Below are positions 29,605-48,927 of a stretch of 64,000 bases of DNA, in pieces. The position numbers were made by a program, and so were the translations under genes. The notes under the pieces are model-generated. The model worked only from the letters and a program-made list of their open reading frames with translations, was not told where the DNA came from and did no database searches. Origin of the DNA: Paeniglutamicibacter gangotriensis Lz1y (GTDB lineage: Bacteria; Actinomycetota; Actinomycetes; Actinomycetales; Micrococcaceae); assembly GCF_000348945.1 (NCBI RefSeq), contig NZ_AOCK01000001.1:186001-250000 (forward strand), read 5' to 3'. Each line of letters opens with the position of its first letter. The stretch's first letter is position 1.

Positions 29605-30789
29605 CTAGACGCCGGCGGCGAGATTCGCTGGTGGTTCGACGCCGACCTCGGTCATGATCGCGGCGTGGTAACTCGGGCCAGGGACGTGGATCGCGTGGGC
29701 CAGACCCATGTGGGCGTCGCGCCAGAAACGCTGGACCGGGTTGTTCAGGCGCAGCCCGTTGCCGCCCGAGCGCGAAAGGATCGCATCGATGGCGTTGGTT
29801 GCACGCCATGCGGCCTGAATCTGGGTGCGGCGGGCAACTGCGCGCTGCTGAAGGCTGATTTCTCCGCCGGCGGCCACGATGTCGTAGAGACGGCTGATGC
29901 TGGCCAGCAGCGTGTCGCGCGAGGCGCTGATTTCACCGGCGGCCTCGCTGACCGCGTACATCGTGTACGGGTCTTCAACTGACTTGAATCCGTTGATCTG
30001 TACGCGCTCGCGCTGGTAGTCGAGGTGGGCCTGCAGTGCGCCCTCGGCGATGCCGATGACGGCCGCGGTCAATCCAACCGGGAAGATGCTGTAGAACGGC
30101 AGGCGGTGGATCGGCTCGGTCTTGCCGGCTTTGCGGGCAACGTCGCCGGCGAACAGCTCGGCCTGGTCGATGGCGCGGTATTCCGGAACGAAAACGTCAT
30201 CGATGATGACGTCCTTGCTGCCGGTTCCCTTCAGGCCCACGACCTCCCAGGAGTCCTCCACGATGGTGTAGTCCTTGCGCGGAACAACCACGTGAAGGAA
30301 GCGCGGAGGCTGAACAGGATTGCCCTCGGAATCGCCCAGGAAGGCGCCGAGGATGACCCACTCCGAGTGGTCGGTGCCGGTGGAGAACTGCCAGTGACCG
30401 GTGAAGCGGTAGCCGCCCTCGACGGGAGTTGCGGTGCCCATCGGCGCGTAGGGCGAGGAAACCCAGGTGTCTTCGTCGACGCCCCAGATTTCCTCCTGCA
30501 GCTTCGGCGACATGAGCTCGAGCTCCCACGGGTGCACTCCGACCACACCGGCAACCCAGCCGGCAGAGCCGTCCAGGCTTGCGATCTTCATGACGGTTTC
30601 GGCGAATTCAACAGGGTGAGCGCGGGTACCGCCGTACTCGACCGGTGCCAGCAGCTTCATGACGCCGCTCTCACGCAGGATCTGCACGGTTTCATCGCTG
30701 AGCTTGCCCAGTTCTTCATTGACGGAAGCCAACGAACGCAGCTCGTCGGCACGGGTGGTGAGGACATCGCTCACGGTGGTTGTCGTCAT
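29605..30789 (-). CDS. hsaA: Flavin-dependent monooxygenase oxygenase subunit, HsaA-like
   Basis: A 394-residue group D flavoprotein with an acyl-CoA-dehydrogenase fold. HsaA hydroxylates 3-HSA to the catechol 3,4-DHSA using reduced flavin. Typical stretches are ESGVMKLLAPVEYGGTRAHP, GSAGWVAGVVGVHPWELELM, GYRFTGHWQFSTGTDHSEWV and the C-terminal NGLRLNNPVQRFWRDAHMGL. A partner flavin reductase (HsaB) is expected but is not adjacent. It is divergent from hsaD with 230 bp between. Confidence 0.9.
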   Translation of the reverse strand: MTTTTVSDVLTTRADELRSLASVNEELGKLSDETVQILRESGVMKLLAPVEYGGTRAHPVEFAETVMKIASLDGSAGWVAGVVGVHPWELELMSPKLQEEIWGVDEDTWVSSPYAPMGTATPVEGGYRFTGHWQFSTGTDHSEWVILGAFLGDSEGNPVQPPRFLHVVVPRKDYTIVEDSWEVVGLKGTGSKDVIIDDVFVPEYRAIDQAELFAGDVARKAGKTEPIHRLPFYSIFPVGLTAAVIGIAEGALQAHLDYQRERVQINGFKSVEDPYTMYAVSEAAGEISASRDTLLASISRLYDIVAAGGEISLQQRAVARRTQIQAAWRATNAIDAILSRSGGNGLRLNNPVQRFWRDAHMGLAHAIHVPGPSYHAAIMTEVGVEPPANLAAGV

Positions 30790-31019: not shown

Positions 31020-31922
31020 ATGACTACGGAACTTCGGAGTTTGCCGGGCGGAACGCCTCTAGCCAGCACCGACGCAATCCTGCGTGAATTTCCCACCGAG
31101 CGGGGAACGCTGCGCTACTGGGAAGCCGGCGAGGGCAGTCCCTTGGTATTCCTGCACGGCTCGGGGCCGGGCGTCAGTGGATGGCAGAACTTCGGTGATG
31201 TATTGCCGGCCTTTGCCAAGCATTTTCGCTGCTATGTGGTGGAATTTCCGGGCTTTGGAGTCAGCGACCCCACCGACCTGCATCCCATGCCTGCCGCGAC
31301 CCAGGCCGTGATCGACCTGCTCGACGGGTTGGGCCTCGAGAAGGTCGACATCATCGGCAACTCCATGGGCGGCATGGTCGGAACCCTGTTCTCCATGAGC
31401 CACCCCGAGCGTGTGCGCCGTCTGGTGACCGTGGGCGGACTGGGCCTGAACACCTTCGCCCCGTTCCCCGCCGAGGGAATCAACCTGTTGGTTGCCTTCA
31501 CCGAGGACCCCACCCGCGAACGTCTCATCCAGTGGCTTCGCTCAATGGTGTACAACGAAGAAGCCGTGACCGAAGAGCTGATTGAAAAGCGCTGGGCACT
31601 GGCCACCGAACCGGGAACCCTTGCGAGCGCCCGCAAGATGTACAGCGCCGCAGCGATGAAGGCCATGATTGCCGCACAGACAGAATCCGATGATCCCCCG
31701 CCCTGGGCAATGCTGCACAAGGTCAAGGCCAAGACGCTGATCCTGTGGGGCCGCGATGACCGGGTCACGCCAATGGACGCCGCGCTGATCCCGATGCGCA
31801 CCATTCCCGACGTGGAACTGCATGTGTTTCCCCAGTGCGGGCACTGGGCAATGATCGAGCAGAAGCAGGCCTTCGAAAGCGTCGTCGTTGAATTCCTGAA
31901 CCGTGAGGAGAGCGTGTCATGA
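31020..31922 (+). CDS. hsaD: Alpha/beta hydrolase, HsaD-like C-C bond hydrolase
   Basis: A 300-residue meta-cleavage-product hydrolase. HsaD hydrolyses 4,9-DSHA after ring cleavage. The oxyanion segment FLHGSGPGVSGWQNF, nucleophile Ser in IIGNSMGGMVGTLF, acid in LILWGRDDRVTPMDA, and His in FPQCGHWAMIEQ are all in place. GAGGAG precedes the ATG. Its stop overlaps the kshB start by ATGA, so both are co-translated. Confidence 0.9.
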   Translation: MTTELRSLPGGTPLASTDAILREFPTERGTLRYWEAGEGSPLVFLHGSGPGVSGWQNFGDVLPAFAKHFRCYVVEFPGFGVSDPTDLHPMPAATQAVIDLLDGLGLEKVDIIGNSMGGMVGTLFSMSHPERVRRLVTVGGLGLNTFAPFPAEGINLLVAFTEDPTRERLIQWLRSMVYNEEAVTEELIEKRWALATEPGTLASARKMYSAAAMKAMIAAQTESDDPPPWAMLHKVKAKTLILWGRDDRVTPMDAALIPMRTIPDVELHVFPQCGHWAMIEQKQAFESVVVEFLNREESVS

Positions 31923-32974
31923 CCAGCACCGTCAGCAGCCCACGGATCACCGCGCTGCAAACCCGAGTCGTTGAAGTAATCCGGGAAACCGCAGATGCGC
32001 ATACCCTGGTGCTTGAGCCGGCCGCTGAGCAGTCGGAAAGCTTCCGTTACCGCCCGGGCCAGTTCCTGACCCTGCGCATCCCCAGCGACCGGGACCAGGA
32101 CGCGGCCCGCTGCTACTCGCTGTGCAGCTCACCGGAACAGGACGAGCGGCTCAAGATCACCATCAAGCGCACGCGCGACGGGTATGCCTCGAACTGGATC
32201 TGCGACAACGTGGAAGCCGGGCACGTGCTGGAGGTGCTCAAGCCGGCCGGAACCTTCGTGCCGTCCACGTTGGACACCGACTTCCTACTGTTCGCAGCGG
32301 GCAGCGGAGTGACCCCGGTGATGTCAATCCTGAAATCCGCGCTGATCGCAGGCAGCGGCACCGTGACACTGATCTACGCCAACCGCGATGAGCAGTCGGT
32401 GATCTTCAAAGATGAATTGGTGGCGCTGACCAAGGCCTACCCCGGGCGCCTGCATGTGATCCACTGGCTGGAGACCGTCCAGGGCATCCCGGATCTGGCA
32501 TCGATGACCGCCCTGGCGCAGCCCTACGCGCAGCGCGAGGCCTTCATCTGCGGCCCCGGACCGTTCATGGACTGCATCGAGAAGGCGCTGGAGATTGTGG
32601 GGACCGCTCCCGAGCGCATCCACATTGAACGGTTTGTCTCGTTGGATGCGGATCCTTTCGCACCGGTAGAACCGCTGAATCACGAAGCGGACGGTGAAAC
32701 GGCCACGATCGAAGTGGAGCTCGACGGAAATACCAGCAACTTAGCCTGGCCTCCCGGAAACAAGCTGCTCGACGTGCTGCTCAACGCAGGCATCGACGCA
32801 CCCTTCTCCTGCCGCGAGGGAGCGTGCAGCGCCTGCACCTGCATCCTGCTGGAGGGCAAGGTCGAGATGGAACGCAACGAGGTGCTCGAAGAACAGGACC
32901 TTGAAGAAGGCCTGATCCTGGCCTGCCAGGCCAAGGCAGTGAGCCCGCACGTGAGAATCTCCTACGAGGGATAG
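31919..32974 (+). CDS. kshB: Ferredoxin-NAD(P)H reductase, KshB-like
   Basis: A 351-residue electron-transfer protein in the order FAD domain, NAD domain, plant-type [2Fe-2S] domain. FAD contact RCYSLCSSPEQ, nucleotide site FAAGSGVTPVMSIL, FICGPGPFMDCI, and the cluster ligands CREGACSACTC plus the Cys in LACQAKAV are visible. KshB passes electrons from NADH to the Rieske oxygenase KshA. It overlaps hsaD by 4 bp, and a terminator follows. The same reductase could serve both the intact KshA and other oxygenases. Confidence 0.92.
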   Translation: MTSTVSSPRITALQTRVVEVIRETADAHTLVLEPAAEQSESFRYRPGQFLTLRIPSDRDQDAARCYSLCSSPEQDERLKITIKRTRDGYASNWICDNVEAGHVLEVLKPAGTFVPSTLDTDFLLFAAGSGVTPVMSILKSALIAGSGTVTLIYANRDEQSVIFKDELVALTKAYPGRLHVIHWLETVQGIPDLASMTALAQPYAQREAFICGPGPFMDCIEKALEIVGTAPERIHIERFVSLDADPFAPVEPLNHEADGETATIEVELDGNTSNLAWPPGNKLLDVLLNAGIDAPFSCREGACSACTCILLEGKVEMERNEVLEEQDLEEGLILACQAKAVSPHVRISYEG

Positions 32975-33015: not shown

Positions 33016-33113
33016 AAACGGCGTCTGGCGTTCGGTACAGGAGGCAAAAACTTCGGGGCCGCACCCTGCATGTACGGCCCCGAAAGCTGTGGAAGACAGT
33101 GGGTGGGACGCCT

Positions 33114-33404
33114 CTAGGGTGCGTCCTGATCCGCAAGCTCCAGGCTGCCCTGAACGGTTGCATCACGGATCGCCGCGCGCAGGGTTTCGCACCCCACAAA
33201 CTGGTCGCGCGGCAGGTTGCCTTCGGCGCTCGCAGGTCGCTCGCGGCACAGGTCCAGTGCCTCCTCGGTCCACTTGACACTGGTTTGGGCCCACACGGAC
33301 TTGCGCACCAGCACCCTTGTCAGGCATTCGGTGCAGCGCACCGGCTGCATTCCGGTTTGGGTGCCCGGGGTTTCGGTGCGCTGGTCTTGATCAATATTCG
33401 ACAT
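33114..33404 (-). CDS. Small cysteine-rich protein coupled to the metal-less KshA paralog
   Basis: A 96-residue protein with VRCTECLTRVLVRKSVWAQ, TSVKWTEEALDLCRERP and FVGCETLRAAIRDATVQG. Four cysteines (CxxC, then two single) could bind zinc or an iron-sulfur cluster. It is clearly paralogous to the protein at 43,278-43,000 downstream of the intact kshA: both share CxxC-x-T-x-VLV-x-K, TSVxW, a later Cys-x2-L and the end GxLEL. Its ATG overlaps the TAA of the upstream gene (TAATG). No named family is recognised. Confidence 0.78.
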   Translation of the reverse strand: MSNIDQDQRTETPGTQTGMQPVRCTECLTRVLVRKSVWAQTSVKWTEEALDLCRERPASAEGNLPRDQFVGCETLRAAIRDATVQGSLELADQDAP

Positions 33405-34450
33405 TACGCCAGCTGCTTTCCATTGACTCTGCGGAGAATGAGGTTTCGTGCCGAGGACCGGGTCCACAGGTCCATGGGCATGGTGGTATCCACCTCGTAC
33501 TCGAACCGGTCGGTCATCCCGGAATCGACGTCGTACGCATCGACAAAGAACTGGCCGTACCAGCGGCGCAGCGCCGCGACCGGGCTGTCGGCTCCGGGGA
33601 TTTTCCCGGAATCCTCGTCCTGGCTGCGTTGCAGCCGTGAGTGCACTGCGTTGGTGATGGACCGCAGGATCTGCGTGGAGTGCCCCGCGGCGACCGCCTT
33701 GAGCTCCGGGTCCGGCGGCTGTTCGGTGCGCACCATCACTCCGGTCATCAGCACCAGGTGCTGCTCGTCGATCGGGTAGTGCGCGGTGAGGACCACTGCG
33801 TCAAGACTGCGGTCTTCCAGGACGTAGTCGAGCTGGGAAATCATGACCGCCGGACCGAAGTAGCTGGCAACGGAGTTTGCCAGGAGGATCTTCGCCCCCT
33901 GGGGCGCTGGCTCCTGCAGCTGGTAGCTGTGATGCAGCGGCCCCTCGAAATACTGGGTGGCCCGATGCCCCTCGAAGACGTTCTTGAAGTACAGCGGATC
34001 GCCGGCTGTGACATGGGTGGAGTTGGCCAGACGCACCAGGTGTTCCACGACCTGCCCGGTTTGGGCCGTGAGGATCGTTTCCTTCCACGACCAGTTTGAC
34101 CAGCCCGGGCCCTCGGCGCAGTTGGCTGCGTCGTGTCCGGTGATGCGGGGGATGGACAGGTGCGCCGGTGGGGGATTTTCCTGCGGATCATGCCAGGCGA
34201 ACAGCAGCCCGTCCTGTTCAAATGCGGGCAGCTCCCGCTGGTGGCCAGGCTCATCCAGCAGCACCCGCGGTGAAACGTCGGGGTACGACTGCACCTGCAC
34301 CCGCCGACCGAATGCCTGCAGGCTGTGGGCGCCGGCGGTGTTGAATCTGCGGGACATGCCCAGGCAATGCCACCCGCGCGCGAAGCGCGCCGGGGAAGCC
34401 TGAGGCGTATACCGGTCCGTTTGCTCCGGATTGACCCGAACCATGTGCAT
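33404..34450 (-). CDS. KshA paralog lacking both metal sites
   Basis: A 348-residue protein aligning with the KshA at 44,551-43,364 from FARGWHCLGMSRRF to LRRWYGQFFVDAYDVDSGM and FEYEVDTTMPMDLW. About 43 residues that hold both Rieske ligand pairs (C-x-H, C-x2-H) are missing. The mononuclear iron motif DMAHFFYVH of KshA is replaced by RLANSTHVT, so Asp and both His are lost. The downstream FKNVFEGHRATQ and the FFVD segment are kept. The frame is open, so a non-catalytic subunit or binding protein is more likely than a dead gene. Divergent from kstD. Confidence 0.82.
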   Translation of the reverse strand: MHMVRVNPEQTDRYTPQASPARFARGWHCLGMSRRFNTAGAHSLQAFGRRVQVQSYPDVSPRVLLDEPGHQRELPAFEQDGLLFAWHDPQENPPPAHLSIPRITGHDAANCAEGPGWSNWSWKETILTAQTGQVVEHLVRLANSTHVTAGDPLYFKNVFEGHRATQYFEGPLHHSYQLQEPAPQGAKILLANSVASYFGPAVMISQLDYVLEDRSLDAVVLTAHYPIDEQHLVLMTGVMVRTEQPPDPELKAVAAGHSTQILRSITNAVHSRLQRSQDEDSGKIPGADSPVAALRRWYGQFFVDAYDVDSGMTDRFEYEVDTTMPMDLWTRSSARNLILRRVNGKQLA

Positions 34451-34587
34451 CCCATTCCTTCGTCAAGCCCGTCCTGAAGCCGCTCCCCAAAGACCGGGTT
34501 CCGGTGAAGTCATAAATCTATATCTAGCCATAAAGTTCAGCATTTGAGCTGGCAGATCCCGGTGTGTGGGATATCACAAAAGTTCTG

Positions 34588-34605: not shown

Positions 34606-34696
34606 GTTGTCCTACTGGGTGGGATGACGCGTTCGCCCACCTGCCCGGGTCTGATTGTCTAGCGCACACACCCATGTGGACGACAAAGGAGAAACT

Positions 34697-36253
34697 ATGT
34701 CCAACAATCAGGTTTGGGACGACGAGTACGACGTTGTGGTCGTCGGTTCCGGCGCTGCGGCCATGGCGGGCGCCTATAGCGCGGCTTCGCGGGGCCTGAA
34801 GGCCCTGCTCGTTGAGAAGACCGACCTTCTGGGCGGTGCTTCGGCCTATGCCGGTGCCTCCTGCTGGCTGCCGGGAACCCAGGTGCAGCAGCGCGCCGAG
34901 GTCGAGGATTCAACCGAGTCGGCCAAGGCCTACCTTGCCTCCGTCATGGGTGATCATGAGATCGAACGCCGAGAGGCATTCGTCGATACCGCCCCGGAAC
35001 TGGTTGCCTTCTTCGAACGGGATCCGGCCATCGAGTTCTATTGGACCGCATTCCCCGACTACTTCACCGGCCCCGAGAGCAAGCCGCTGGGCCGCTCGAT
35101 GATGCCGGTGGATCTGCCGCGCGAGGAAATCGGCGACCTGGCCGAGATGGTGCGTCCGGTGGTTGAATACGACCGCTACAACCAGCCTCACCCTGACGGC
35201 CCGCTGACCGCCGGCCAGGCGCTTATCGGGCGGCTGCTGCTGGCGCTGACCAACACCGGCAACGGCACCATTCGTCTGGAAACCGAACTGACCGAGCTGA
35301 TCACCGAAGACGGCCGGGTGACCGGAGTGATCGTGAAGGACGCCGAGGGCACCCGACGCATCCGCGCCGCCGAGGGCGTGATCCTTGGAGCCGGTGGTTT
35401 CGAGGCGAACCAGGACTGGCGCACCGAGAACCAGTCACCGGGGTCCGCCGAGTGGACCATGGCTCCGGCCGGTGCAAACGTTGGCACCGGCATCCTGGCC
35501 GGCCAGAAAGCCGGCGGCGCCGTGGAGATGCTCAACGAAGCCTGGTGGTGCCCGGGCGCCGTGCAGCCACGGGGAAACACCGCCTTTGCGCTGGGGTTCC
35601 GCGGAGGCGTGTGGCTTGACTCCAACGGCCAGCGCTTTGCCAACGAGTGCCTGCCTTACGACCAGATGGGCCGCGTGCTGGCCGCAGCGCCGGAGCGCAT
35701 CCCGTCCTGGTTCATTTTTGATTCGCGCTTCGGCGGCGAGCTGCCGGGCATCATGCGTCCGTACAACACCTCCCCGCAAGAGCATCTGGAGGCTGGCACC
35801 TGGGTCAAGGCGGATACGCTCGAAGAGCTGGCCCAGGCCACCGAGCTGCCGGTCGACGCCCTGAAGGCAAGCATCGAGCGGTTCAATGGCTTCACCGTCA
35901 CCGGCGTGGATGAGGACTTCCACCGCGGCGAGAACCCGTATGACCAGTTCTTCGCCGACCCGGCCTACGGTCCTGGCCCGACCCTGATTGCGGTCGACCA
36001 GCCGCCGTACTACGCAGCGCGCATGGTGCTCAGCGACCTGGGCACCAAGGGCGGCCTGCGCACCGACGTGGACGCGCGTGTGCTGCGCGAGGACGGCACC
36101 CCGGTTCCGGGCCTGTACGCGGTGGGCAACACCAGCGCCTCGTTCTCCGGCGGCTTCTACCCGGGCCCCGGCACCCCGCTGGGTTCGGGCATGGTCTTCG
36201 CCTACCGTGCGGCGCAGACCCTGAAGGCACCGCTGAAAGCCCAGATCGGCTAG
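34697..36253 (+). CDS. kstD: 3-ketosteroid-delta1-dehydrogenase-like flavoprotein
   Basis: A 518-residue FAD enzyme of the KstD/fumarate-reductase superfamily, which introduces a double bond into ring A of 3-ketosteroids. The FAD loop is VVVVGSGAAAMAGAYSAAS. Active-site tyrosines expected in KstD can be placed in FPDYFTGPESKPLGRS, RFANECLPYDQ and FYPGPGTPLGSGM (Tyr and Gly four residues on). ATG at 34697 follows AAAGGAGAAACT and is preferred to 34655. A delta4-dehydrogenase is an alternative within this family. Confidence 0.85.
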   Translation: MSNNQVWDDEYDVVVVGSGAAAMAGAYSAASRGLKALLVEKTDLLGGASAYAGASCWLPGTQVQQRAEVEDSTESAKAYLASVMGDHEIERREAFVDTAPELVAFFERDPAIEFYWTAFPDYFTGPESKPLGRSMMPVDLPREEIGDLAEMVRPVVEYDRYNQPHPDGPLTAGQALIGRLLLALTNTGNGTIRLETELTELITEDGRVTGVIVKDAEGTRRIRAAEGVILGAGGFEANQDWRTENQSPGSAEWTMAPAGANVGTGILAGQKAGGAVEMLNEAWWCPGAVQPRGNTAFALGFRGGVWLDSNGQRFANECLPYDQMGRVLAAAPERIPSWFIFDSRFGGELPGIMRPYNTSPQEHLEAGTWVKADTLEELAQATELPVDALKASIERFNGFTVTGVDEDFHRGENPYDQFFADPAYGPGPTLIAVDQPPYYAARMVLSDLGTKGGLRTDVDARVLREDGTPVPGLYAVGNTSASFSGGFYPGPGTPLGSGMVFAYRAAQTLKAPLKAQIG

Positions 36254-38771: not shown

Positions 38772-39007
38772 GCACGTGGCTCCCTTGTCTTCTCGCAGCA
38801 CCGTCCTCAACTGTTGGGACGCTCTGTTCTGGCGTGTTCCAGCTCAAACTTCGCCCCGGCCAGGCTGCGTAAAGCATGCACGGGGGAAATGTTTCGAGGC
38901 TACTGAGGATGGGAACGTAATTTTTGTGTGGTCCCGGTGGGCGGGAATGACAAGGTGGCGTGAATGGATCGAATCGGTGAGGCGGCCGGATGATCGGAGG
39001 GAAAACC

Positions 39008-39595
39008 CTAGGCCATGATCCCGTCGAGGAACAGTGCGCTGCAGTCGGCCGTCAACTGATCCAGCGTGTACTTCTTGGACGGGGTGAACCAGCGGGCGGT
39101 CAGCCATAGCGAGTCGCGTACCAGGCGGTGGACGACGTTCGCATCGAGGTCCTTCTTGAATACCCCGTTCTCGATGCCCAACTCAATAACTTCAACCCAC
39201 AACTTGGCGATGTCGCTACTGATCGCGCGGGTGCCGGTCGACTTGGGCAGCTTCTGAATGTACGCGATCTCGTTCTGGTAGATCTGCGTGGCGTGCGGGT
39301 AGTCGCGGATGATCTCCAAGGTGATGCGGATCAGCTGGTTCAACGCTTCGCGCGGTTTGGTGCTGGATTCGGTGACGCCGCGGTAACGTCCCTGCAGTTC
39401 CTCGAGGAACTCGGTGAGGACTTCCTGAACCATCTCATCCTTGGACGCGAAGTGGTGGTACAGGCTGCCCGAGAGCATGCCCACGGAGGCCGAGATCTCG
39501 CGCACCGAGGTGCCGCCGATGCCCTGCTGGGCAAAGAGCCGGGCAGCGTTGTCGAGAATGACAGTCCGGCGGGTGGGTGCGGTCTTGTCAGCCAT
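39008..39595 (-). CDS. kstR2: TetR-family repressor, KstR2-like
   Basis: A 195-residue regulator with an N-terminal TetR HTH (LDNAARLFAQQGIGGTSVRE, then SASVGMLSGSLYHHFASKDE). The C-terminal effector domain has IRDYPHATQIYQNEIAYI and a tryptophan-rich LWLTARWF. In actinobacteria KstR2 represses HIP-degradation genes and is released by HIP-CoA. Here it is followed by fadD3 on the same strand, and four related sites lie near HIP genes. ATG at 39595 follows AAAGAGCG. Confidence 0.82.
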   Translation of the reverse strand: MADKTAPTRRTVILDNAARLFAQQGIGGTSVREISASVGMLSGSLYHHFASKDEMVQEVLTEFLEELQGRYRGVTESSTKPREALNQLIRITLEIIRDYPHATQIYQNEIAYIQKLPKSTGTRAISSDIAKLWVEVIELGIENGVFKKDLDANVVHRLVRDSLWLTARWFTPSKKYTLDQLTADCSALFLDGIMA

Positions 39596-39688
39596 TAATC
39601 GCTCTTTCGCAGAAGGTGGTGTTGCAGAATTTGCTGGTCTTGCGCCGTGCGGCGGGCGCGGCAATGTCGAATTCCATTCTAGCAACAA

Positions 39689-39702
39689 ACCAAGCGCTCG
39701 TT
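39689..39702 (+). promoter_or_regulatory. KstR2-type operator 1
   Basis: ACCAAGCGCTCGTT matches the KstR2 motif A-n-CAAG-nn-CTTG-n-T with one mismatch. It lies between the divergent regulator and alpha/beta-hydrolase genes. Confidence 0.65.
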
Positions 39703-39825
39703 TTTGGGGGGTGGCTCGTTCCGTCCCGTCCACTGGGATATGACGCCCGAGGGGCAGCGGGGCCGGGATGTAATTGTGGGCGGTTTGAGAATGCCGCCGC
39801 CGTTAACTTTTCCGAAGGAGCCGCC

Positions 39826-43363: not shown

Positions 43364-44551
43364 CTAGGCCTTCGCCTTGGTCGGATCCTGCTCGGGAACG
43401 ACGCCCCTGGCCACGTTCTCGGCGACCTCGACCTTCCAGGTTTCCAGGGCCTTGGTGGTGTCCACCTCGAACTCGAAGCGGGCAACCATGTCCTCGGTGA
43501 TGTCCGCGACATCCACGAAGAACTGCTCGTACCAGCGGCGCAGCTGGTAGACCGGGCCGTCCTCTGCGGTCAACAGCGGGTTATCAATGCGGGTCTTGTG
43601 CTTCCAGATCTCAACGTCCTGCTTGAACTGGGTCTCCACGCCTTCGGTGAACATTTCCGCCATGGCGTCGGCCTGCTCCTGGGTGACCCCGTCGATGGTG
43701 TGCACGGAGGTGCCGAACATCAGCACGAACGAGTCCTGCGAGATCGGGTAGTGGCAGTTGACCAGCATGGTCTCGACGGTGGTGTCCCCGGCGAGCGTGT
43801 ACACGGTGTCCAACATGAACGACGGGCCGTAGTAGGCGGCGTCGGAGACGGTTTCCGAGTCCGGCATATCCAGCTGTACGCCGGTGTGGATGTCGTCGCG
43901 GCCGGTCGAGCGCATGTGCTGGGCTGCGACGTGGCCCTCGAAGATGTTCTTGAAGTACTGCGGCATCTGGTAATGCACGTAGAAGAAGTGCGCCATGTCA
44001 ACGACGTTGTCCACGATCTCGCGGCAGTTCGAGCCCTCGACCAGGAAGGTGTTCCAGGACCAGTCGCTCCACTCGTCGGTGCCGAAGCCGGGGATCTCCG
44101 GGATGATGACGTCAGCCGGAGGAGGGTTGCCTTCTGGGTCGTTCCAGACGAAGAGCAGGCCGTTCGTCTCCATGGTCTCCCAAGCTGCGGTGCGGGCGCG
44201 CAGCGGCACGCGCTGGGCGTACGGCACGTCCTTGCACTTGCCGTCGCCGCCCCAGCGCCAGTCGTGGAACGGGCACGAGATCTCGTCGCCCTTGATTTCG
44301 CCCTTGGACAGATCGCCGCCCATGTGGCGGCAGAAGGCATCCAGCACATTGAGCTTGCCCTTGGTGTCTGCCCAGATGACGACCTTGGTGCCGAAGACCT
44401 TAACGGTGTGCGGCTTGCCGTTGCGGAAGTCCTTGGCCAGGCCCAGGCAGTGCCAGCCGCGGGCGAAGCGGGTCGGGTTGCTGCCCGCGTCGATGAGGCG
44501 AACCTCGTCGAACTGCTCGGCGTCAGTGACTTCTGTCATTTCAGTAGTCAT
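43364..44551 (-). CDS. kshA: 3-ketosteroid 9-alpha-hydroxylase oxygenase, KshA
   Basis: A 395-residue Rieske non-heme oxygenase that hydroxylates C9 of ring B and, with KstD, opens the ring. Rieske ligands are FCRHMGGDLSKGE and ISCPFHDWRWGG. The mononuclear iron site is NVVDMAHFFYVHYQ (Asp, His, His), and the third ligand is probably the Asp in RRWYEQFFVD. The FKNIFEGHVAAQ segment is typical of KshA. It needs KshB (31,919-32,974) for electrons. A small cysteine-rich protein follows on the same transcript. Confidence 0.94.
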   Translation of the reverse strand: MTTEMTEVTDAEQFDEVRLIDAGSNPTRFARGWHCLGLAKDFRNGKPHTVKVFGTKVVIWADTKGKLNVLDAFCRHMGGDLSKGEIKGDEISCPFHDWRWGGDGKCKDVPYAQRVPLRARTAAWETMETNGLLFVWNDPEGNPPPADVIIPEIPGFGTDEWSDWSWNTFLVEGSNCREIVDNVVDMAHFFYVHYQMPQYFKNIFEGHVAAQHMRSTGRDDIHTGVQLDMPDSETVSDAAYYGPSFMLDTVYTLAGDTTVETMLVNCHYPISQDSFVLMFGTSVHTIDGVTQEQADAMAEMFTEGVETQFKQDVEIWKHKTRIDNPLLTAEDGPVYQLRRWYEQFFVDVADITEDMVARFEFEVDTTKALETWKVEVAENVARGVVPEQDPTKAKA

Positions 44552-45436: not shown

Positions 45437-45777
45437 GCCTGCTCCTTTGTGTTGCCAACGTTTCAGCACACAGTTTGCCCCGTGGTTGTGACCGGGGTCT
45501 CGTCCTGTCCCGCTGTTTGGGACTTCGCGCCGAGGAGGGTGTGATCGGCAACATACTGATTCTCACGTTCGGGGAGGCAGGCAAGGGGCCGTTGGCGATG
45601 CGCCGCGGTCCCGCCCATGGGGGCAACGCCTCCCGACTTGCGATAGCAGCTGCGCGAAGGACACCGGTTTGTCCGCGCCGCCGGGGGAAATCCCCGGTGC
45701 ACCGCACGCGTTAGCGGGTGCAGCCGCTTGCAAGGTCCTCGGGCGTACACACTCACACCAAAAGAATAGGAAATGCC
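45437..45777. promoter_or_regulatory. Divergent promoter region of SDR and MFS genes
   Basis: 341 bp without a credible gene. Two small hairpins near the MFS side (CCGGGG/CCCCGG around 45680 and CACCGC/GCGGGTG around 45700) could form in the leader RNA. No KstR2-type box was found. Confidence 0.4.
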
Positions 45778-47247
45778 ATGACGAGGTCCGGGCAGCAAGC
45801 CACCCAGAGAGCGACCAGATTCCCTGGTTACGCCAAAATCGTCAGCGTACTGCTGGTCGCAGAATTCGTCGGAACCTTTGAATCGGCGATGATCTTCATC
45901 GCCCTTCCCAACTTGATGCATGATTTCAACGTCGATGCGGCCGCCGCGGGATGGGCGGTCACCGCCTTCCTGTTGGTTGCAGCTGCCTCGGCAGCGATCT
46001 GCGGACGCTTGGGCGATATATATGGACGCAAGAAGCTGCTGGTGATCGTGCTGTCCATCTCCGTGCTCGGCTCCATCATCAGCTTCTCCTTCGGCACGCT
46101 GGGCGGCGTCATCCTAGGCCGCGCGCTGCAAGGTGCTGCCGGTGCGACCCTGCCGCTGTGCCTGGGTCTTGCCCGCCAGGAGTTGCCCAAGGCGAAGGTG
46201 CCCCACGTGATCGCGCTGATCGCCGGGTCCTCGTTCCTGGCCGGCGCCGGCGGCAACCTGATTGCCGGCGTGCTGCTCCAGATGGGCAACTGGAGGTCGC
46301 TGTTCATCGTTTCCGGCATCATGGGAATCATCGCCGCGCTGCTGGTCGCGTTCCTGCTCAAGCCCTCACCCACCACCCGCACGGGAGCCCGCGGCATCGA
46401 CTACATCGGCGGACTGCTCTTCGCCCCGGCCGTGGGTCTGGTCCTCTACGGCCTGACCAATGCCGGCGTCTGGGGATTGCTGGATGGAAAGACCCTTGCC
46501 TTCGTGCTGGGCGGCTTGGCCGTCGCGGCCATCTGGTGCTGGTGGGAGCTGCGGGTGGAGAACCCGATGATCAACCTGCGCCTTTTGCAGACGAACAAGA
46601 TGGCGCTGACCCAGCTGTGCACCGCCGTGCTGGGCATCGGCCCGCTGGTGGCCGTGGGCATCCTGACCCCGATCATCCTGTTGTCTCCCGCAACCGATCC
46701 CGCAGGTCTGGGCGTTTCGCCGGCCATGGGCGGCGTCATCATCTTCAGCGCCGCGACGCTCAGCTTCATCGGCTCTCCGTTCAGCGGCAAGGTTGCCGCT
46801 GCCGTGGGCGCACGGCGGGTTCTGCTGATCGGCATCGTGATCAGCTTCGCCGGCTACTCGGCCATGTTCTGGGCGGACAACAACCTGCTCACCTTCATCA
46901 TCAACACCTACGTCATCTCCATCGGCGTGATGTTCTCCTACACCGCGTTCCCGAACCTGGTGGCCGAATCGGTTCCCCTGGAGAACACCAGCGAAGGCAT
47001 GGGCATCAACACGGTGACCCGCACCATCTTCATGGCCGTTGGCGCCACGGTGCTCACCATGGCCCTGGCATCCTCGACGGTTGAGGGGACCATGGTGTCC
47101 ACCGAATCCGCGTTCAACACCGCCTACATCATCATCGCCGCGACCTGCGTGGTGGCCTTCATCCTGGCACTGCGCATCAAAGACTCGCCGCGCACCGATG
47201 CGGCACATCCGCAGGACTCCGCACAGCTCAGCATTCCGGGCAACTAG
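45778..47247 (+). CDS. MFS transporter, DHA2-like, copy 1
   Basis: A 489-residue membrane protein with about 12-14 hydrophobic segments. It carries the motif-A-like loop CGRLGDIYGRKKLLVIVL, GRALQGAAGATLPLCLGLAR (motif C region), and IWCWWELRVENPMINLRLL. It is a tandem paralog of the gene at 47461. The position between kshA and other steroid genes suggests uptake or efflux of a steroid or its degradation products. An antiporter function is typical of the family but not proven. The start follows ATAGGAAATGCC. Confidence 0.88.
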   Translation: MTRSGQQATQRATRFPGYAKIVSVLLVAEFVGTFESAMIFIALPNLMHDFNVDAAAAGWAVTAFLLVAAASAAICGRLGDIYGRKKLLVIVLSISVLGSIISFSFGTLGGVILGRALQGAAGATLPLCLGLARQELPKAKVPHVIALIAGSSFLAGAGGNLIAGVLLQMGNWRSLFIVSGIMGIIAALLVAFLLKPSPTTRTGARGIDYIGGLLFAPAVGLVLYGLTNAGVWGLLDGKTLAFVLGGLAVAAIWCWWELRVENPMINLRLLQTNKMALTQLCTAVLGIGPLVAVGILTPIILLSPATDPAGLGVSPAMGGVIIFSAATLSFIGSPFSGKVAAAVGARRVLLIGIVISFAGYSAMFWADNNLLTFIINTYVISIGVMFSYTAFPNLVAESVPLENTSEGMGINTVTRTIFMAVGATVLTMALASSTVEGTMVSTESAFNTAYIIIAATCVVAFILALRIKDSPRTDAAHPQDSAQLSIPGN

Positions 47248-47264
47248 GCGCCCGACTCAGACCT

Positions 47265-47337
47265 GGGGCCCGAAACCCGGGCCCCGCCACACCCCCGCCC
47301 CGAGTCCGTGGGAGAACCGCAAGGACCAGGGGCGGGG
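47265..47337 (+). terminator. Two hairpins between the tandem MFS genes
   Basis: GGGGCCCG/CGGGCCCC at 47265-47285, and CCCCGCCCC/GGGGCGGGG arms at 47293-47337. They end or attenuate the first MFS transcript before the second gene. Confidence 0.6.
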
Positions 47338-47460
47338 ACCCGTCCGCCGCGCACGTGCCAAGACTTGCACGCCGCCTGGACACGATTTAAGTCAGCATCA
47401 CCCAGCGCCCGGGTCCCGGGGCTGTCACATCCATGCACTGATAAAAGCAAAGGAAACACG

Positions 47461-48927
47461 ATGGCGTCGTTTCTGAAGAAGCAAAACCCGGGGACTTCTC
47501 GGTCCTCAAGCTATGCCACGATCATCACCGTGCTCATCGCCACGGAGCTAGTGGGTACCTTTGAATCCGCGATGATTTTTATCGCAATGCCGAGTTTGAT
47601 GGCGGAGTTCAACACCGACGCGGCCAGCGTCGGATGGGCAGCGACCTCGTTCCTGCTGGTCGCCGCGGCCTCGGCCGCGATCTGTGGCCGACTGGGCGAC
47701 ATGTACGGGCGCAAGAAGATGTTGGTGATCGTCCTGTTCATCTCGGTTCTCGGTTCGATCATTAGTTTCTCGGCCGGCTCCATTGAAGGGGTTATCCTCG
47801 GCCGTGCCTTCCAGGGAGCGGCCGGCGCGACGCTGCCGCTGGGTCTGGGCATCGTCCGTGCGGGCATCAAAAAGGACAAGGTTCCCGGAGCGATTGCACT
47901 GGTCGCCGCGGTCTCCTTCATCGCGGGTGCCGGCGGTAGCCTGGTTGCCGGTGTCCTGCTGGATCTGGGCAACTGGCAGGGCCTGTTTGTCGTCTCCGGC
48001 ATCCTGGGCCTCATCGCCGCCGTGATGGCGATGACCATGCTCGCTCCGTCCACCGAACTGAGCACCGAACGCAAGAAGATTGACTTCATGGGCGGCCTGC
48101 TCTTCGCTCCTGCCATCGCCCTGGTGCTCTACGGCGTCTCCAACTCCACCGTTTGGGGCGTCACCGATGCCCGCACCCTGCAGTTCGTATTCGGCGGCCT
48201 GGCCGTCGCGGCCATCTGGTGCTGGTGGGAGCTGCGGGTGGACGACCCGATGATCAACCTGCGTCTTTTGAAGACCAACAAGATGGCGCTGACCCAGCTG
48301 GCAACCGCGATCCTGAGCGTCGGTCCGTTGGTGGCGGCGCAGATCATCGGGCCGATGATCATGCTTTCGCCAAGCGGTCCCGGGGTTGGTCTTGGCCTTT
48401 CGCCGACCATTGGAGGCCTGATCATTTTCGGCGCCGCAACCGTCGCGTTCCTGTGCGCACCGATCAGCGGCAAAATCGCCGCGCGGATGGGTGCCCGTCG
48501 AGCCCTGCAGATCGGCATCCTCATCTGCGTGATCGGCTACACGGCGTTGTTCTGGGCACAGCACGGGGTGCTGAGCTACATCATCGCCATCAGCGTGGTC
48601 TTCGTCGGCACCATGTTCGCCTACACCGCCTTCCCGAACCTGGTAGCCGAGTCGGTGCCGGTGGAGAACACCAGCGAGGGCATGGGCATCAACACGGTGA
48701 CCCGCACCATCTTCATGGGTGTCGGTACGACCGTGACGACCATGGCACTGGCTTCATCGACCGTGGAGGGAAGCAGTGTTCCGGCAGAGGGCGCCTACTC
48801 CCTGGCCTACGTGATCGTCCTGATCGCCAGCGTCATTGGGTTCGTCCTGGCCTCGCTGATCCGTGAACGAGTAGCCACGCAGGATCCGGCCGGTGAGACA
48901 GACCTGGTGTCGGCCGTTGAGGGCTAG
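47461..48927 (+). CDS. MFS transporter, DHA2-like, copy 2
   Basis: A 488-residue paralog of the preceding transporter with the same topology. Shared stretches include FESAMIFIAMPSLMAEF, GRLGDMYGRKKMLVIVL, IWCWWELRVDDPMINLRLL, and a C-terminal AYTAFPNLVAESVPVENTSE. Some of these are nearly identical at DNA level to copy 1, pointing to tandem duplication with possible gene conversion. AAAGGAAACACG precedes the ATG. Substrate unknown; a steroid-related one is likely from position. Confidence 0.88.
   Translation: MASFLKKQNPGTSRSSSYATIITVLIATELVGTFESAMIFIAMPSLMAEFNTDAASVGWAATSFLLVAAASAAICGRLGDMYGRKKMLVIVLFISVLGSIISFSAGSIEGVILGRAFQGAAGATLPLGLGIVRAGIKKDKVPGAIALVAAVSFIAGAGGSLVAGVLLDLGNWQGLFVVSGILGLIAAVMAMTMLAPSTELSTERKKIDFMGGLLFAPAIALVLYGVSNSTVWGVTDARTLQFVFGGLAVAAIWCWWELRVDDPMINLRLLKTNKMALTQLATAILSVGPLVAAQIIGPMIMLSPSGPGVGLGLSPTIGGLIIFGAATVAFLCAPISGKIAARMGARRALQIGILICVIGYTALFWAQHGVLSYIIAISVVFVGTMFAYTAFPNLVAESVPVENTSEGMGINTVTRTIFMGVGTTVTTMALASSTVEGSSVPAEGAYSLAYVIVLIASVIGFVLASLIRERVATQDPAGETDLVSAVEG

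Follow-up and report, generated by a model that had tools for sequence, protein, structure and literature searches.

Among the genes of a steroid cluster of Paeniglutamicibacter gangotriensis Lz1y, one resembles the Rieske oxygenase KshA along nearly its whole length and holds neither of the two iron centres of that enzyme; what this gene is, where it came from and what it may still do are the questions addressed here. The cluster lies in the stretch of 64,000 nucleotides that was analysed as a whole (contig NZ_AOCK01000001.1, positions 186,001 to 250,000; hereafter the window), and its features are collected in Table 1. The gene, which we call psKshA, is a frame of 348 codons with an ATG start and no internal stop, open and divergent from kstD as the first-pass annotation had stated. 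Its product shares 112 of 375 alignment columns (30%) with the ligand-complete KshA of the same window (E 8e-56 in BLASTP), and homology to KshA covers almost all of it, with E 3e-62 in phmmer and E 3.3e-103 in the profile comparison with 4qdf. The segments FARGWHCLG, YFKNVFEGH and LRRWYGQFFVD, described earlier as retained, were all three found in it. In the Pfam scans, psKshA matched the KshA_C domain alone (E 2.8e-39), whereas the resident KshA of the window carries KshA_C together with a Rieske domain. This KshA_C-terminal domain (PF19298) is present in all six members of the ligand-poor clade described below (the dead form), and Rieske matches were found in two of the six, weak ones with a best E of 0.011.

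Table 1. Features of the psKshA locus and its surroundings, in window coordinates
Feature	Position	Strand	Basis
psKshA, iron-less KshA descendant, 348 aa	33404..34450	-	open frame; Pfam match to KshA_C and none to Rieske; omega 0.09-0.22 (three sister pairs)
Last 30 residues (319-348), the same in the window and both Glutamicibacter	33407..33496	-	codon comparison
Former mononuclear-iron helix EHLVRLANSTHVT, residues 136-148	34007..34045	-	alignment
Rieske-domain base remnant (residues 22-75), both cluster-binding loops missing	34226..34387	-	alignments
kstD, 3-ketosteroid delta1-dehydrogenase-like, divergent neighbour, likely ATG 34697	34655..36253	+	
kshB-like reductase, FAD, NAD and plant-type 2Fe-2S domains	31919..32974	+	Pfam
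hsaD-like hydrolase	31020..31922	+	
hsaA-like flavin monooxygenase	29605..30789	-	
Resident ligand-complete KshA, different clade	43364..44551	-	
TetR gene	39008-39733		
Operator-like site TCCCGGTGTGTGGGA, between psKshA and kstD	34557..34571	+	
Operator-like site, second copy TCCTACTGGGTGGGA	34610..34624	+	
Third exact operator-like site, upstream of fadD-like gene	38932..38946	+	
One-mismatch operator-like site at TetR start	39724	-	
One-mismatch operator-like site upstream of SDR-kshA operon	45508	+	

The stretch missing from psKshA amounts to 44-47 residues by alignment, and both Rieske ligand pairs are gone with it. The loss of both pairs had been claimed before and stands; the length given with that claim, 43 residues, is not exact and depends on the alignment. 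At the mononuclear iron site, psKshA reads EHLVRLANSTHVT against DNVVDMAHFFYVH in KshA. According to the available excerpt of the review PMC4064121, the facial triad of KshA consists of His181, His186 and Asp304, and Asp178 is the bridge to the cluster of the neighbouring subunit. The three triad positions, read by hand from the alignment, are N143, T148 and A268 in psKshA, so that all three iron ligands are replaced. The first-pass annotation had taken the D of D-x2-H-x4-H for one of these ligands; it is the bridging Asp178, and the conclusion of iron-site loss stands because the true third ligand, Asp304, is also replaced. Since neither cluster nor iron is left, the KshA reaction of known mechanism is excluded for psKshA.

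The dead form was found in six species of two genera and one family, namely in the window's genome, G010, Glutamicibacter protophormiae and G. soli (G036 and G063 in the family sample), G008 and G009; Glutamicibacter belongs to the Micrococcaceae, the family that also holds the window's own genus. Identity to the psKshA of the window is 86% in G010, 66% in G. protophormiae, 65% in G. soli and 41-42% in G008 and G009. The five orthologs in other species are open and devoid of both histidine ligands, which answers the earlier concern that homologs might be absent or full of stops, and a sequencing error or assembly artefact is ruled out by the open dead form in six genomes. Both iron histidines are lost in all six copies, the Asp304 equivalent in four of the six, and the bridging Asp likewise in four, the psKshA of the window included. 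The Rieske 2Cys-2His site is absent in the window, G010, G. protophormiae and G. soli. G008 and G009 have lost one Rieske histidine, part of the loop and both iron histidines, but they keep three of four Rieske ligand letters as well as the bridging Asp and the equivalents of Asp304, Phe301 and Trp308 (positions compared by hand). This half-stripped form (L005 and L006), which retains CNVH and a single Cys from the Rieske site beside the bridging Asp and the Asp304 equivalent, is a natural intermediate, an earlier stage of the loss. To the earlier question whether homologs always lack the ligands, the answer is yes for the iron histidines, whereas these two species keep some of the others.

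In the window's own genus, any match at E <= 0.001 was obtained in 4 of 15 genomes, and in Glutamicibacter in 2 of 18. A third genus gave matches in 5 of 29 species, once each, with all ligands present and no second match. In the family sample, 11 of 395 genomes matched at E <= 1e-20, six with the dead form and five with an intact KshA; the order sample, with matches in 2 of 396 genomes, both known already, added no further one. A second, ligand-complete KshA is present in all six dead-form genomes. Its distance from psKshA is about 9 kb in the window and likewise in G010 and G008, and about 13 kb in both Glutamicibacter; in G009 it lies on a different contig. The suggested co-occurrence with kshA or kstD was borne out, as a complete kshA and an adjacent kstD were found in six of six genomes. 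The gene order hsaC-like, hsaA, hsaD, kshB, X, kstD is common to the window, G010, G. protophormiae, G. soli and G008, and the short contig of G009 covers X-kstD onward alone. In the third genus, slot X holds an intact KshA in three mapped species (of five). The HsaA of G327 (L068:13358-14538) matched as two overlapping pieces and may be frameshifted, in an assembly that is 94% complete.

Wider searches were also made for other KshA without the Rieske part. In a class sample of 394 genomes, 99 matches were examined after the two rows of the own genome had been dropped, and 95 of them carry 30-49 extra residues in the Rieske loop region; the other four are two contig-end pieces and two overlapping pieces of one broken gene. 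In one family of 301 genomes, 239 matched, and among the matches listed all show the extra stretch, as judged by eye and not computed. These searches scored five to six candidates per genome, so that they could have overlooked a dead copy that is divergent and arose independently. Among plasmids, 27 records matched, the best identity being 34.8% among the best 20 of the 27, and one Sphingobium plasmid match that aligns from residue 72 only carries the Rieske and iron motifs. No relative of psKshA or of the window's KshA was found in the viral contigs searched. Three actinobacterial KshA copies with an internal stop or in pieces (G876:C1:2783468-2784586, G1215:C43:128316-129431 and G1067:C1:4569283-4569821) look like ordinary decaying copies, unlike psKshA.

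The origin of psKshA was examined in a tree of 45 proteins, in which the six dead copies form a clade (99/96) adjoining the KshA of the third genus. The tree program warned that this clade joins two subclades on long branches and that the composition of two dead rows is unusual. The dead copies and the five KshA of the third genus form one group with 100/100 in the full tree, and re-rooted quick trees gave 70 and 69 at the fork joining them. When either dead subclade was left out, the other stayed beside the same third-genus KshA (L021). One clade of the resident KshA with the dead copies was rejected (p-AU 0.001), and with it a recent duplication of the resident KshA. The first-pass annotation had called the gene a KshA paralog; it did not split off recently from the window's KshA but is the degenerate offspring of another KshA lineage, which is still ligand-complete in the same slot of the third genus. 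Because that slot holds an intact KshA there, and because of the tree placement, psKshA is the ancestral kshA in its original place, disarmed in genomes that have a KshA of the other clade. It is plausible that this second, other-clade KshA is the hydroxylase of the dead-form genomes. GC3 of the resident KshA is 0.91 against 0.81-0.83 in psKshA, KstD, KshB, HsaA and the enoyl-CoA hydratase, and this may hint at its separate origin.

If psKshA were decaying freely, dN/dS near one would be expected. Codon likelihood gave omega 0.215 for window/G010, 0.090 for the two Glutamicibacter and 0.171 for G008/G009, and each value rejects 1 with p <= 1e-12; neutrality was thus rejected in three sister pairs, in a sample that is effectively small because the six sequences fall into two deep lineages. 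Omega was taken from codon likelihood, as YN00 and some NG86 estimates were unusable or saturated, and three coding sequences (KshB of G. soli, KshA of G008 and the enoyl-CoA hydratase of G. protophormiae) were cut at a stop near the 3' end before alignment. For the neighbours, omega was 0.02-0.11 (KshA, KstD, KshB and HsaA) and 0.07-0.15 (enoyl-CoA hydratase beyond kstD), and psKshA evolves faster than most of them. In simulations of neutral substitution with 1000 runs per pair, both sides stayed open 2, 2 and 0 times. Constraint is uneven along the protein, being looser in the N-terminal part and Rieske remnant (0.21-0.56) and tight in the C-terminal half (0.02-0.15). For residues 1-75, omega was 0.56 in window/G010 (p 0.2 vs 1) and 0.22 in the two Glutamicibacter (p 0.001); in G008/G009 it was 0.21 in the first 57 residues (p 8e-5) and 0.46 in the Rieske remnant (p 0.05). 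The middle third gave 0.09-0.19, and the C-terminal half 0.15, 0.02 and 0.08 in window/G010, Glutamicibacter and G008/G009. The N-terminal remnant is not simply free to decay, since neutrality was rejected there in two of three pairs.

These values, the neutral simulations and the segment omegas rule out a neutral pseudogene. A slowly decaying relic without a function of its own would fit the stepwise loss, in which two species keep parts of both sites and four keep none, as well as the first 75 residues of window/G010, which are not distinguishable from neutral, and the borderline Rieske remnant of G008/G009. We consider it highly improbable in view of omega far below 1 in three pairs and of 0.02-0.15 in the C-terminal half, of frames that are open in all six copies, and of the 15 bases upstream of the start codon, which are identical in four species. 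With its catalytic residues gone and its gene under purifying selection, psKshA has the two marks of a pseudoenzyme, and its catalytic inactivity is predicted. Therefore a new, non-oxygenase job is probably what psKshA has been kept for.

One candidate for the working part is the C-terminus. Between the window and G. protophormiae, residues 319-348 show 10 silent and no amino-acid differences, and against G. soli 9 and none, although overall identity of the proteins is about 66%. Over the last 18 residues, the net charge is +5 in four dead copies, the window's included, and +4 in the other two, compared with -3 to +2 in ten intact KshA, among which the basic tail was not seen. An antisense frame of 226 aa (33099-33779, + strand) covers the 3' part of psKshA and has no Pfam match. 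An internal stop interrupts it in G010, but the other three of the four species have it open, and it cannot be dismissed on account of stops. Over the 124 shared codons of window and G. protophormiae, 95 are identical in sense and 84 in antisense, and over the last 30 codons 30 and 24; the antisense frame was set aside as a selected one, being less conserved than sense and without a Pfam match, and the sense frame, which is better kept, was taken as the selected one.

The C-terminal region also contributes to the trimer of KshA, as far as the excerpt of PMC4064121 describes it, and it is the most constrained part of psKshA. Together with the complete KshA in all six genomes, this would suit a non-catalytic subunit of the resident KshA in mixed trimers, tuning or stabilising the hydroxylase. 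We regard such a subunit as unlikely, as the resident KshA belongs to the other clade (p-AU 0.001) and is about 30% identical, the basic tail is not seen in ten intact KshA, and the head-to-tail contact has been lost with the Rieske loops and, in four of six copies, with the bridging Asp. It also weakens the idea that the psKshA of the window has neither of the two faces that meet in head-to-tail electron transfer, namely the cluster loops and the bridging Asp.

In the dead clade, 107 of 348 positions are invariant in the six copies; 56 of these residues occur in 90% or more of 34 intact KshA, and 15 in no more than 10%. E136-H137, which precede the first lost iron histidine (N143) by six to seven residues, occur in all six dead copies and in none of the 34 intact rows, where D-N stands in 100% of the rows with a letter. 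T222, another of the 15 fixed residues, sits at the Asn257 position. The excerpt of PMC4064121 proposes eight steroid contacts in KshA (V176, Q204, Y232, M238, N240, N257, F301 and W308); at these proposed positions Q204, Y232 and M238 are kept in the window's psKshA and V176, N240, N257, F301 and W308 have given way to other residues. With five of the eight contact positions changed, the pocket has been remodelled and not preserved, and the old ligand may be bound no longer, with three of eight contacts kept. If psKshA had turned into a metal-independent enzyme with a steroid intermediate as its substrate (e.g. an isomerase or hydratase) and with E136-H137 in its active site, this would explain why these residues are fixed beside the lost iron site, and why T222 replaces the Asn257 equivalent. 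We think this improbable, since the pocket positions other than these differ between the two dead subclades and the fixed residues may merely repack a metal-free pocket.

The gap between psKshA and kstD holds two operator-like sites. The pattern TCCYRSTGNGNGGGA has three exact matches in the 4.32-Mb genome, all in the steroid cluster, against one for the reversed control; the matches at 34557 and 34610 are not independent evidence, because the pattern was drawn from them. A further one-mismatch site at 32807 falls inside the kshB-like gene and is probably due to chance. With the related pattern TCCYRSTGKGTGGGA and two mismatches allowed, six matches were found in the window, where 2.06 would be expected; six were also reached in 3 of 100 shuffles. 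Related sites fill the corresponding X-kstD gap in the other mapped genomes, those with an intact KshA included. The site TCCYRSTGNGNGGGA differs from the KstR motif of mycobacteria, and the TetR protein encoded in the window may be what binds it. In the region from the SDR gene to the thiolase gene (45718-48927), there are probably two tandem MFS transporters, by comparison with L063, L070, L071 and L072, where two MFS genes lie beside SDR-kshA.

The one-mismatch site upstream of the SDR-kshA operon also speaks for the mixed trimer discussed above. Adjoining the operator-like sites and having a conserved basic tail, psKshA might also act as a steroid-responsive regulator or co-regulator of the cluster, its tail touching nucleic acid or the TetR protein. 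This is very unlikely in our opinion, since Pfam scans found no DNA-binding domain in psKshA, a TetR gene is already at hand, and a basic tail is weak evidence.

Tentatively, and at close to an even chance, we favour a pseudo-oxygenase, that is, an in-place kshA stripped of both centres and kept as an accessory of the steroid-ring pathway that would dock on a pathway protein and hold a steroid intermediate; the ligand, docking, partner and effect are what we infer. The computed part of this reading comprises the descent, the loss of both centres, the purifying selection and its spread along the protein, and the operator-like sites shared with other cluster genes. The in-place kshA would have lost the Rieske cluster loops and the mononuclear iron site in a lineage also carrying a second KshA. 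The working part would then be a metal-free helix-grip (StAR-like) domain plus the newly conserved basic C-terminal tail. Docking would use the tail, as its conservation suggests, and the old trimer-forming C-terminal region, and KstD, the divergent neighbour, or the resident KshA would be the first partners to consider. The remodelled, iron-free pocket might take up a steroid intermediate, either to deliver it or to act as a brake.

In the available excerpt of PMC4064121, KshA is said to have a StAR-related helix-grip fold and to form its trimer with the help of C-terminal features, and a helix-grip fold in psKshA is predicted by homology to the solved KshA structures. AlphaFold2 on four sequences gave a mean pLDDT of 44.5 and a pTM of 0.44, too low for the model to be used. 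Compared with KshA (PDB 4qdf, 4qdc, 2zyl), psKshA is homologous over nearly the full length, occupies the gene slot of the third genus's ligand-complete kshA and keeps the C-terminal segment, but it differs in lacking the Rieske ligands, the equivalents of His181, His186 and Asp304 and the bridging Asp, and in having the basic tail. With the StAR/START/Bet v1-like lipid carriers it would share a metal-free helix-grip fold, expected by homology, although Pfam scans gave no sequence match to these families. NdmC of the caffeine N-demethylase NdmCDE is, in the excerpt of PMC10380055, an alpha-type chain without the N-terminal Rieske cluster and soluble only in complex; it is the substrate-binding monooxygenase chain, and NdmD supplies the Rieske domain. 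As described in that excerpt, NdmC is like psKshA a Rieske-oxygenase alpha-type chain without the cluster, but in psKshA the iron site is gone too, and the kshB-like reductase of the window shows no Rieske domain. It is possible, at rather less than an even chance, that a Rieske oxygenase which had lost both metal centres was put to new use without leaving its operon slot, as a metal-free accessory subunit that holds a steroid and docks by a new tail. The oxygenase fold would thereby have gone back to binding in the manner of StAR.

Kinases and proteases include well-studied pseudoenzymes. Among Rieske oxygenases, we found no described case of an inactive protein or pseudoenzyme in listings of the open-licence literature, and the words inactive, truncated and non-functional are absent from PMC8228715, which deals with the KshA copies of a Rhodococcus. 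On sequence grounds, psKshA would be a pseudoenzyme of the KshA family for which no counterpart was found in that literature. Its history is visible in living species, ligand-complete in the same slot, half-stripped and fully stripped, and for this reason retention after the loss of catalysis is directly testable in cultured environmental bacteria. In steroid drug manufacture, the balance of KshA and KstD decides the product. If psKshA modulates KstD or KshA, it would have a bearing on such manufacture.
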